From NCBI RefSeq assembly GCF_003725955.1, contig NZ_QIBZ01000002.1:124001-188000 (forward strand): DNA of 64,000 nucleotides. The letters run 5' to 3'. The DNA is from Slackia isoflavoniconvertens. Lineage in GTDB: Bacteria > Actinomycetota > Coriobacteriia > Coriobacteriales > Eggerthellaceae. The position numbers were made by a program, and so were the translations under genes. The notes under the pieces are model-generated. The model ran no database searches. It had not been told where the DNA came from and saw nothing but the letters and a program-made list of their open reading frames with translations. Shown here piece after piece: positions 4,351 through 7,902 of the stretch. Numbering within the stretch: position 1 is the stretch's first letter; every line of letters begins with the position of its first letter.

Positions 4351-5203
4351 TTCGACTCCCTTTCACGTTATTGCAGCATGTGTTTCTCAATGAATAGCCG
4401 TACAAGTATAACGTAGCGAAATCGGATGTAAACCCCCTTTTCACGCAGTTCATAAAGCATTTTCGAAAGAAAACGGCGCTTTCGGGCGAAAAAACGCTAC
4501 TAGTAGGCTCGCTTATGTTTTCAACACTATATATAGGTTTCAATTCACGACGAATTCTTCACGAGTGGAAAATGGAACGGAAAACAACGACTTTTCCAAC
4601 CGCGGAAAACTGCCGAGGCGCCGTTGCGGCTCTTTCCACCGCACGATCGAGGGCTAAATGAGCTCTATTGTGGAAAACTGAGCTTATTCACCGTCTCAAA
4701 ATGTGGAAAGTGAGGAAAACCCAGGCATTACGCGGTTTTTCCGGTGGAAAACTACGCAGAAAACCGTGAAACACGTTTTGGAAAAATGTTTTCCAGCATC
4801 GCGGAAACTGCTTTGCAAAAACTTCAGAAAGCGGTTATGAACTGGGCTTTTCCGTGTTTTCGCCAATTTTTCCAGTATGAATTCAAAACTTGCTCTGGAC
4901 TTTTCAGGAAAGCGTACAAACTGTCGTGTTTTTCCGTTCTCTCCCCCTTGTTTTCCAGTAAGTCAAGCTGTTTTTTAAGGTTTTCCGCATTGGTTTCCAT
5001 TCATTTCCACCGTTTTCCACATTCCTTGAATAAAAAGTGGAAAACTCGGAAAACATGAGGTTGATGGCTATGGAAATTTCCACCATGAGTGGAAAGAGTC
5101 TTGAAAAACATGACTTTCCACCTCTAGAATGGTGGAACTCATTCGTGAAAAAGTTTTTACAATTTTCCAAGCGAGTGAAAATTAGCGGAAAACCTGGAAT
5201 AAC
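4351..5203. other. oriC: Replication origin region, upstream half (oriC)
   Basis: 853 gene-free bases between rpmH and the gene preceding dnaA, AT-rich compared with the flanks. Eleven copies of GTGGAAA or its complement occur at 4565, 4633, 4670, 4703, 4744, 5004, 5014, 5037, 5077, 5089 and 5115 (left ends), several extended to the form TTTTCCACA or TTTTCCACC. Further GGAAAA/TTTTCC half sites lie between them. These look like a variant of the DnaA box TTATCCACA. Short open frames here (such as 4744-5058) are low-complexity by-products of the repeats. Gene orientation diverges on either side, as expected at an origin. Confidence 0.85.
4405..4432 (-). promoter_or_regulatory. Promoter of the rpmH-rnpA-yidD-yidC operon
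   Basis: On the minus strand TTTACA (4432-4427), 16 bases, TATACT (4410-4405). It lies about 55 bases before the rpmH start and faces away from the origin. Confidence 0.7.
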
Positions 5204-6010
5204 TTGGGAAAAGCGTTGGAACCTACACTAAACACAGCACAAAACGCACCCGAGCCCGCATCTGGAGTCAACGAGGATTACTCTCGCGCTATCGCGAGCG
5301 CACGAATCGCTTGCTATGACGACTTCCGAAGCGCGCCACGCGTGACTGAAATAGCTCCTACCACCACGGCGGAGTTCATCGAGAATCTTGCCTCCACTAT
5401 CTACACCCAGGCCCAGCAGGCCGGCGGCAGCATTCCCTATACTGCGATTCGCGAGGTCAGCGAGAATTTCATCCATGCCCAATTCAAGGAAATCGTGGTC
5501 TCGATTTTCGATAAGGGCAACACGATTCGCTTCACCGACCAAGGTCCCGGCATTCCCCAAAAGGAAAAGGCGCAAATGCCTGGCTTTTCGTCGGCCACAA
5601 GCGACATGAAACGCTACATTCGCGGCGTCGGCAGTGGATTGCCCCTGGTAAAGGAATATCTTTCGTTCTCGCACGGTCGCATCACGATCGAAGACAACAT
5701 CAAATGCGGCTCCGTGGTAACCATCAGCGTGAAACCCGAAGAAGATTTCGACGTGCCGAGGGGCGCACCCACGCGCGAGCAGCGCAAACAAATGGTGCCC
5801 GCCCTTTCCGACCGCGAGAAAGACGTGCTCTATTTGTTCTTGGACCAGCCCACGCTGCGCGTGACCGACATCGTCGAAGAACTTGGCCTTGCGGCGAGCA
5901 GCGCCCACCGCGCGCTCAAAAAGCTCGAAGAGGCAGGCCTTATTTCCACCGTCGGAAAAATGCGACAGGTCACTGACGAAGGTCTGCGCGTCATCGACGC
6001 GTTGTTTTAA
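5204..6010 (+). CDS. GHKL-type ATPase with C-terminal winged helix (function unknown)
   Basis: 268 residues if it starts at TTG 5204; TTG 5216 and GTG 5342 are alternatives, none with a strong ribosome-binding site. Residues ~55-177 form a Bergerat ATP-binding fold: N-box EVSENFIHA (E84, N88), G1 box DQGPGIP (D112), G2 box GVGSGLPLV (141-149) and a closing GSVVTI strand. Residues ~201-268 read as a MarR/LexA-like winged helix (LSDREKDVLYLFL, DIVEELGLAASSAHRALKKLEEAGLI). There is no histidine phosphoacceptor, receiver or membrane segment, so it resembles an anti-sigma-type ATPase joined to a DNA-binding domain. It lies between the origin repeats and dnaA, so a role in replication control or dnaA expression is a reasonable inference. 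I do not know a characterised homologue. Confidence 0.85.
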   Translation: MGKALEPTLNTAQNAPEPASGVNEDYSRAIASARIACYDDFRSAPRVTEIAPTTTAEFIENLASTIYTQAQQAGGSIPYTAIREVSENFIHAQFKEIVVSIFDKGNTIRFTDQGPGIPQKEKAQMPGFSSATSDMKRYIRGVGSGLPLVKEYLSFSHGRITIEDNIKCGSVVTISVKPEEDFDVPRGAPTREQRKQMVPALSDREKDVLYLFLDQPTLRVTDIVEELGLAASSAHRALKKLEEAGLISTVGKMRQVTDEGLRVIDALF

Positions 6011-6099
6011 TTTCCACACCCCGCTGAAGACACCACAATTGGAGGATTGGCCGCTATAATTTCGATACCATCTACGGAGGGAAGGCGGCTTGAATAAAC

Positions 6100-7707
6100 A
6101 TGGATCCAAACAACCCCTATGAAACCTGGCAAGCCGTTATCGAAAAGGTCAAATCGTATGGCACGGTGAATCCGGCGCAGGTCGACGCGTTTCTGGGACG
6201 CATGCAGCCGCAGGCATCGAGTGTGGGTTTCCTGCTCGCCACCGTCGATACCGACTTCATTAAAGGCCAAATCGAAAAGCGCTTTCTTTCGCAAATCGAG
6301 CAGGCGCTGCGCGACTTGTTCGAAACCGAATATGTGGTAGAAATCGAGGTCGACCCGGGTTCTTCGGCGTTCATGCAGCAAATCGCCACGCAAAATGCCC
6401 AGCAAGCGGCACCTTACACGCCGCCTGCACAACCGGCAGCCCCTCAGGCAGCGGGAGCGCAGGCGGGTGCCGCACCCATCGCGCCCGCACATTCCGAACC
6501 TGCAGCGCCAGCCGCGCAGCCGATTCAATCCCAGCCCCAGGTCGCACCGCAAGTTCAGCCTGCTATTGCGGCACAGCCGAGCTCCCCGCAGCCGCCGGCG
6601 GCGACAAGCCACCTCACCGGCAGCCAAATCGCGCGCGCGAACGGCATGGACACGGGCGCCGCCGCGTTGACCTTCGAGAACTTCATCATCGGCGATTCGA
6701 ACCGTTTGGCCTATTCGATGGCCGTGTCGGTAGCGGAATCGCCCGGCAAGTCGACCCTGAATCCCCTGTTCATCTATGGAAAAAGCGGTTTGGGCAAAAC
6801 GCACTTGCTACGAGCTATCCAGAACTACATTCTGGAAACGCGGCCCGATATGCGCGTGGTGTATATCGACGCGCAGGAGTTCATCACGGAATATTCCATC
6901 GCCGCGATTGACCACAGCAAAGACAAATCGAGCTTCCAGGCGTTCCAAAGCCGCTATCTCGACGCCGACGCGCTGCTCATCGACGACGTGCAGTATTTCC
7001 AAGGCAAATCGGCCACAGTAAATATCGTGTTCCAGCTGTTTAACCGCCTCACCGACGCCGGCAAACAAGTCGTGCTTTCGGCCGACCGTTCGCCGAAGAG
7101 CATTGATATCGACGAACGCTACAAGAGCCGCTTCAATTCGGGCGGCACCTACGACATTCAGCCGCCCGAGGTCGAAACGAAGCTCGGCATTATTAAGTCG
7201 TTCATCGAGGAATACAAGCGCTCCGAAGGCAGTTGGGATTTATATGTCCCCGAAGATATACAGATGTATATCGCGGAAATATCGAGCTCAAACGTACGCG
7301 AGCTCAAAAGCGCCGTAACAAAGGTCATTTCGCAAATGACCGCGTTCGGAAACCCCGACATCACGCTTTCCGACGTGAAATCGCTGCTCGAGAACCATTT
7401 CTCGGCCGGTGCGTTGAAGAAAATCACCGTCGAAGCCGTGCAGCACGAAGTCGAGCAGTACTACCAGGTGAGCCATGCCGACCTCATTGGCACGAAGCGA
7501 TCGCGCAATATCGCCTATGCGCGCCACGTAGCGATCTATTTGTGCCGCCAGATGATCGACATTCCTTACAACGATATCGGGAAGCGGTTCAATCGCGACC
7601 ACTCGACCATTATGAGCTCCGTCGAGAAGATCGAGAAGAAGACCAAAGAGAGTCGAGAGCTTCAAGAAGAGCTCGAGATCATTATTAAAAACATTCGGGA
7701 AAACTAG
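6100..7707 (+). CDS. dnaA: Chromosomal replication initiator DnaA
   Basis: AAA+ initiator that binds DnaA boxes and opens the origin. Domain I covers about residues 1-90. It is followed by a long Ala/Pro/Gln-rich domain II (to ~190), an AAA+ domain with Walker A GKSGLGKTHL and Walker B LLIDDVQY, a sensor region SRFNSGGTYDIQPPE, and the DNA-binding domain IV with RNIAYARHVAIYLCRQM and NRDHSTIMSSVEKI. The signature has NRDHSTI where most DnaA proteins read GRDHTT. 535 residues, slightly long because of domain II. ATG 6100 is preceded by GGAGGGAAGGCGG at a rather long spacing. Confidence 0.97.
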   Translation: MDPNNPYETWQAVIEKVKSYGTVNPAQVDAFLGRMQPQASSVGFLLATVDTDFIKGQIEKRFLSQIEQALRDLFETEYVVEIEVDPGSSAFMQQIATQNAQQAAPYTPPAQPAAPQAAGAQAGAAPIAPAHSEPAAPAAQPIQSQPQVAPQVQPAIAAQPSSPQPPAATSHLTGSQIARANGMDTGAAALTFENFIIGDSNRLAYSMAVSVAESPGKSTLNPLFIYGKSGLGKTHLLRAIQNYILETRPDMRVVYIDAQEFITEYSIAAIDHSKDKSSFQAFQSRYLDADALLIDDVQYFQGKSATVNIVFQLFNRLTDAGKQVVLSADRSPKSIDIDERYKSRFNSGGTYDIQPPEVETKLGIIKSFIEEYKRSEGSWDLYVPEDIQMYIAEISSSNVRELKSAVTKVISQMTAFGNPDITLSDVKSLLENHFSAGALKKITVEAVQHEVEQYYQVSHADLIGTKRSRNIAYARHVAIYLCRQMIDIPYNDIGKRFNRDHSTIMSSVEKIEKKTKESRELQEELEIIIKNIREN

Positions 7708-7902
7708 TCGAAAACTTGAGGAAAGCGGTGGAAAGATAATATAGGCAATAAAAGCAGTGGAAAGCGGGTGCAGGTTGTCAAACATTCTTCAGTCATCATA
7801 AACAATGACTGAACAGGCACGATGCAACCTTTTCCACTTTTCCACCGTCCTTATTACTACTACAATCATTAATTATTTATTTAAGAGCAGAAGGGCAAAA
7901 AA
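7708..7902. other. oriC: Second origin cluster and candidate unwinding element (dnaA-dnaN gap)
   Basis: 195 bases with four more GTGGAAA/TTTCCAC motifs (7728, 7757, 7831, 7839); the last two form directly adjacent head-to-tail TTTTCCAC units. Four GC-leaning bases (GTCC) follow, then TTATTACTACTACAATC and an A/T-only run around 7866-7882. The order of box pair, short GC segment, trinucleotide tract and AT-rich run matches the B. subtilis basal unwinding system, whose DnaA-trio reads 3'-(G/A)AT-5' on the opposite strand. Confidence 0.7.

Follow-up and report, generated by a model that had tools for sequence, protein, structure and literature searches.

The gene and its protein

The window considered here is a stretch of 64,000 nucleotides from Slackia isoflavoniconvertens (contig NZ_QIBZ01000002.1, positions 124,001 to 188,000), in which an open frame at 5204-6010 (+ strand) is predicted to encode a GHKL ATPase domain followed by a C-terminal winged helix-turn-helix (wHTH). 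The frame lies between the rpmH/rnpA side and dnaA (6100..7707, +; Bac_DnaA 8e-52, Bac_DnaA_C 4e-24), and its Pfam domains, purifying selection and near-universality in Coriobacteriia mark it as a genuine gene. The original prediction had proposed that it encodes a replication regulator; this is partly supported by the data reviewed below and is the most likely reading. Translation more probably starts at TTG 5216 than at TTG 5204: all five Slackia relatives inspected have TTG at the codon that corresponds to 5216, three of the five have AAT or ATC at the one that corresponds to 5204, and GGGAAAAG stands ahead of TTG 5216. With this preferred start the gene spans 5216..6010 (+) and encodes 264 amino acids; 5204 is kept as the alternative start, and residue numbers count from that codon.

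The domain pair named in the original prediction was recovered by Pfam, with HATPase_c (E=1.1e-10) at residues 79-178 and two winged-helix matches above cut-off, HTH_IclR (9.8e-9) and MarR_2 (3e-8), at residues ~201-249. None of the 25 best-listed NCBIfam models reaches its cut-off on the protein. From the HATPase_c match and the family alignment, the GHKL ATPase domain is placed at residues 33-176 (5300..5731, +), and the winged helix at residues 199-267 (5798..6004, +) from Pfam, family conservation and AlphaFold. Across the family, HATPase_c is matched by 81 of the 81 scanned members and a wHTH family by most, and longer homologues are explained by an interdomain linker that varies from 11 to 150 residues. 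AlphaFold, run on seven sequences, models the winged helix confidently (pLDDT 81-89) and the GHKL domain poorly (mean pLDDT 51 and 52); Foldseek matched nothing with the AlphaFold model, whose GHKL part is poor. The C-terminal domain appears to be a DNA-binding winged helix of the IclR/MarR/TrmB type, judging from Pfam and the predicted fold. The protein does not belong to the IclR or MarR family proper, with which it has only the HTH part in common, the remainder being HATPase_c.

Active-site conservation was read from an alignment of 124 homologous proteins from the sampled Actinomycetota genomes, and it bears out the claim of a complete Bergerat site. The N box EVSENFIHA (5453..5479, +) contains the catalytic Glu84 (123/124), the Mg-binding Asn88 and His91 (both 124/124); in the G1 box DQGPG (D112-G116; 5537..5551, +) the D and both G residues are found in 124/124 and the P in 123/124; and G127, G141 and G145 of the ATP lid and G2 box (G127...G145, PGFSSA ... 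GVGSGLP; 5582..5638, +) are again present in 124/124. The residues without any exception are Asn88, His91, Asp112, Gly114, Gly116, Gly127, Gly141, Gly145 and Gly169. The sequence features of the GHKL superfamily (catalytic Glu, Mg-binding Asn, G1 DxGxG, G2 GxGxG lid) are thus all found, and the invariant His91, three residues past Asn88, looks like a family-specific signature. In the winged helix, positions Arg204, Ser232, Ser/Thr233, Arg236, Lys253 and Arg254 are conserved across the same proteins, whereas the window protein has Met at position 253. Between the closest pairs, dN/dS is 0.003-0.08 in the ATPase domain and 0.01-0.4 in the winged helix, and these very low values indicate strong selection on the protein. 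Pairwise identities correlate with those of DnaA at 0.84 for the winged helix and 0.46 for the ATPase domain, figures that have no control gene and are not used as evidence.

A search of PDB profiles gave the sensor kinase KinB (3d36) as best match, with the same G2/lid type, which could suggest a decayed histidine kinase whose ATP domain is kept only as a structural scaffold. However, a scaffold would not need the catalytic Glu, Asn, Asp and lid glycines that are invariant or nearly so in the 124 proteins, and the dN/dS of the ATPase domain also argues against decay; this explanation is very improbable and was rejected. Nor can the protein be called a sensor histidine kinase. No HisKA-type domain was matched by profile search in the window protein or in the 81 scanned members, no conserved His precedes the N box in the 124-protein alignment, and hydrophobic segments are lacking, with a maximal Kyte-Doolittle window of 0.56 in the window protein and none of the 124 homologues above 1.6. 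The original prediction was therefore right that histidine kinase and membrane parts are missing. Unlike the catalytic (CA) domain of histidine kinases, the protein comes without a HisKA/DHp helix or a sensor, and it has a Glu at N-4 and the invariant His at N+3.

Origin context

Upstream of the gene, a DnaA-box cluster (4565..5212) is recognized by its density of TTTTCC sites, 21 of the window's 65 falling at 4400-5230, that is in 1.3% of its length; the concentration spans about 4500-5250. The original prediction had taken 4500-5200 as oriC. The box density there is real, but a DnaA-trio-like element is also found in the dnaA-dnaN gap (7708-7902). The origin is therefore probably bipartite and encloses the gene, and 4500-5200 is likely to be one of its halves rather than the whole of oriC. 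The basal unwinding (BUS-like) element in the gap, TTTTCCACTTTTCCACCGTCC-TTATTACTACTAC (7830..7863, +), is composed of two DnaA boxes, a GC step and trio-like TTA TTA CTA CTA, and matches the basal unwinding element described in PMC6669920. DnaA boxes, GC step and trio-like repeats occur in the same gap in loci L003-L008, and around half of another 20 genomes have something similar. A trio-like element was also noted at L184, L186, L190, L191, L193-L195, L197, L198, L200 and L201, a conservation that reaches well beyond Slackia. In Bacillus subtilis, the origin is likewise bipartite, with boxes upstream of dnaA, boxes and trios between dnaA and dnaN, and the DnaA-trio unwinding element in incC (PMC6669920).

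A sigma-70 promoter of the gene, TTGAAA-N18-TAGAAT (5101..5130, +), is predicted by sequence match, and a counterpart, TTGGAA-N17-TA(G/A)AAT, is present in five Slackia relatives. The original prediction had put both promoter and start codon in the box cluster, and for the promoter this is supported. A box scan located a DnaA-box core, TTTCCAC (5115..5121, +), within the promoter spacer, and a box is found there in the window and in three of the five Slackia relatives (4/6 Slackia). Because it lies between -35 and -10, DnaA bound in the cluster would be expected to repress the promoter.

The inverted DnaA-box pair TTTTCCACATTCCTTGAATAAAAAGTGGAAAA (5013..5044) is the Eggerthellaceae form of a conserved origin module, TCCACA-N2-TGTGGA-N6-TGTGGA, in which an inverted pair is followed, 12 bp further along, by a direct repeat. 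Allowing up to two mismatches, 69 of the 124 loci have the module ahead of the gene, and its distance hardly varies within a clade. Its first two boxes are separated by N3 in Rubrobacteraceae-like genomes, and Eggerthellaceae have lost the middle box. In genomes without the gene (L159-L161) the module stands directly ahead of dnaA, which places the gene between dnaA and a conserved origin module.

Other elements were seen in the upstream regions. The triple-box module also takes the form TTTTCCACA-N2-TGTGGAAAG-N3-TGTGGATAA, followed by GAAAA and CCTG-like motifs (e.g. L128, L080). In L062-L088, which are Coriobacteriia outside the window's order, a second tandem pair, TGTTGATAA-N3-TGTGGA, and a conserved GGATACGGC...CAGG.GTT element lie about 30-110 bp before the start codon and are a possible promoter or operator. 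In leaders of L015-L037 and similar Eggerthellaceae, TGAA(A/T)A repeats ~10 bp apart follow the -10 and precede the start codon; they may be bound weakly by DnaA or serve as winged-helix sites.

Distribution and linkage to dnaA

Homologues were sought in Actinomycetota genomes. A strong homologue (E below 1e-30) is present in about 264 of 296 Coriobacteriia genomes, the remaining matches in this class being only at histidine-kinase level. In the Actinomycetota sample, 139 of 346 genomes were positive, 108 of these outside Coriobacteriia. In the class of genome G334, 30 of 39 genomes were positive (21/22 good assemblies), and in the class of the actinomycete-like genome G317 none of 246 sampled. 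Viral contigs gave no homologue, and what plasmids and one phage gave were short, partial matches of the histidine-kinase kind; on these grounds the idea that the gene came from a mobile element or a phage was rejected.

In 143 of 158 homologue-bearing genomes the gene precedes dnaA in the same orientation at a distance of under 2.5 kb, and in a further 14 a sequence end falls between the two (10 single-contig chromosomes cut there, 4 contig-end splits). With these 14 included, it is immediately upstream of dnaA on the same strand in 157/158. In the last genome (G190, L152) it is inverted yet still adjacent to dnaA; G264 (L025), of the same genus, likewise has the gene inverted, and in both a DnaA-box module lies between gene and dnaA. 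Homologues scattered without a link to dnaA were thus not encountered, and the layout, which the original prediction considered unusual, is so relative to model bacteria but is the norm within Coriobacteriia. Outside Eggerthellaceae, the gene-to-dnaA gap is 3-20 bp in the loci inspected, a spacing so short that it suggests co-transcription of the two genes as one operon. Eggerthellaceae mostly have wider gaps of about 50-270 bp, often with TATAAT; in the window the gap is 89 bp, and its TATAAT (6055..6060, +) is the probable -10 of a separate dnaA promoter. Among 18 Coriobacteriia genomes examined that have no strong match, 11 also lack a dnaA match, so their assemblies miss the origin, one has a contig beginning within dnaA, and six contain dnaA but not the gene.

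Relation to known GHKL proteins

A second explanation is that the protein is a Ser/Thr protein kinase of the SpoIIAB/RsbW/BCKDK type, placed at the origin by its winged helix. By phosphorylating DnaA, a different protein of the orisome or the kinase's recognition helix, it would switch initiation or dnaA transcription. GyrB, MutL, SpoIIAB and mitochondrial kinases use a Glu four residues ahead of the N-box Asn as catalytic base, and histidine kinases usually lack it. Its presence here is typical of GHKL ATPases and Ser/Thr kinases rather than histidine kinases. The PGF(S/T)(S/T)A lid and GxGxGLP are reminiscent of branched-chain ketoacid dehydrogenase kinases, the second-best PDB profile matches, and 3 of 81 members reach the spIIAB model at 1e-6. 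CapK, an HTH-STAS-GHKL Ser kinase that single-stranded DNA activates and that controls the operon next to it (EMBO J 2026, PMC13373217), provides a precedent that makes this alternative a serious one. However, no STAS-type or other conserved small substrate gene adjoins the gene, the generic HATPase_c similarity reaches histidine kinases even better, and Ser/Thr residues in the recognition helix are common in winged helices. A kinase of this type is considered rather unlikely.

None of the established names applies, since the tested features of the CapK, SpoIIAB and histidine-kinase families fail. Like SpoIIAB/RsbW anti-sigma factor kinases, the protein has a soluble GHKL domain with catalytic Glu and N, G1 and G2 boxes, but these kinases have no winged helix and work with a STAS antagonist and sigma factor partners, and the window protein misses the spIIAB model at 1e-5. 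Initiation control restricted to particular lineages, the role proposed here, is also that of YabA, SirA, Soj, DiaA, HobA and Hda. These have unrelated folds, none of them is known to be a GHKL-wHTH protein or the gene before dnaA, and Bacillus subtilis is not known to have such a gene between the upstream boxes and dnaA. The resemblance to CapK/CapS is closer, as a GHKL kinase domain and an HTH are united in one protein encoded upstream of the adjacent operon that it controls, CapS carrying a wHTH (PMC13373217). Yet CapK/CapS is HTH-STAS-GHKL with a neighboring STAS-wHTH gene, whereas in the window protein the HTH is C-terminal, no STAS match was found, there is no partner gene, and the neighbors are the rnpA side and dnaA. 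The statement that no system of this layout had been described is thus too strong; a GHKL-HTH regulator beside its own operon is known, though not at dnaA and with a different domain set (PMC13373217).

A candidate regulator of dnaA or of the origin

The explanation considered best is that the GHKL-wHTH protein is an ATP-gated DNA-binding regulator of the dnaA operon or the origin, to which a probability of roughly 0.5 is given. Counted in its favor are the adjacency to dnaA (157/158, with the remaining gene inverted but adjacent), the box module between inverted gene and dnaA in G190 and G264, and the 3-20 bp gaps outside Eggerthellaceae. At the protein level, the near-invariant catalytic Glu/Asn/Asp/Gly set, the conserved contact positions of the winged helix, the domain pair across the family and the low dN/dS of the ATPase domain point the same way, as do the DnaA box in the promoter spacer in 4/6 Slackia, the DnaA-box regions of the probable bipartite origin on both sides of the gene, and the absence of viral homologues beyond short kinase-like plasmid and phage matches. 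The protein would then be a regulator of ancient, vertical descent whose gene sits within the replication origin, just upstream of dnaA. By analogy with GHKL enzymes of the GyrB/MutL/SpoIIAB type, its active-site anatomy suggests that it binds, and probably hydrolyses, ATP. The nucleotide state would probably alter lid closure or dimerization and thereby how far apart the two C-terminal winged helices stand; these helices may bind DNA at the origin or dnaA promoter. Combined with repression of the gene's promoter by DnaA, the net effect would be a feedback loop by which dnaA expression or the assembly of the orisome is adjusted to the ATP/nucleotide state.

Several points weigh against this. 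Linkage to dnaA alone can reflect conserved gene order, the order of the nearby rnpA, yidC, jag and rsmG being fixed as well. Slackia G162 has a truncated copy of the gene, and G227, G061, G008, G020 and G131 have none, with dnaA and the synteny around it kept. In G162 a remnant of about the first 81 residues (L169, G162:C8, roughly 858-1100) persists in the original place beside an intact dnaA, and in G227, of the same genus, the gene is gone. Provided that these assemblies are correct, the protein is dispensable in some relatives, which argues that it is not a general requirement for initiation. A dyad search upstream of the gene found no conserved inverted repeat except DnaA-box pairs, so no operator for the winged helix was identified, and no structure with a confident GHKL domain was obtained from the seven AlphaFold sequences. 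The missing origin-specific operator, the tolerated losses and the fixed neighbors, not all of which are origin regulators, would also fit a transcription regulator acting mainly on distant genes, its place before dnaA reflecting conserved gene order with growth-coupled expression and no role in initiation. That linkage survives inversion of the gene, and that its promoter holds a DnaA box, speak against this explanation, which is considered improbable.

The GHKL-wHTH protein is thus a strong candidate, on sequence grounds, for a controller of replication or of dnaA that had not been described before, and no open-access paper describing the gene was found in searches on GHKL/winged helix with dnaA and on Coriobacteriia, Rubrobacter and Eggerthella. 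More tentatively, and with some doubt, deep-branching Actinomycetota may possess a class-wide, undescribed form of replication control, in which one protein, a GHKL switch driven by ATP or a Ser/Thr kinase, would bind the origin through its winged helix and, encoded by the first gene of the dnaA operon inside a bipartite origin and repressed by DnaA, would tie initiation to the nucleotide state or to single-stranded origin DNA. DnaA regulation outside E. coli, Bacillus and Caulobacter is largely an open question. The dnaA-adjacent gene occurs in nearly all Coriobacteriia and in several further old lineages of actinobacteria. Its fixed place beside dnaA in Coriobacteriia, which are common gut bacteria, in Rubrobacteraceae-like genomes and in many uncultured actinobacterial lineages, together with its absence from all 246 genomes of another large class, makes it a concrete candidate regulator, for which the natural losses within one genus provide a built-in comparison.
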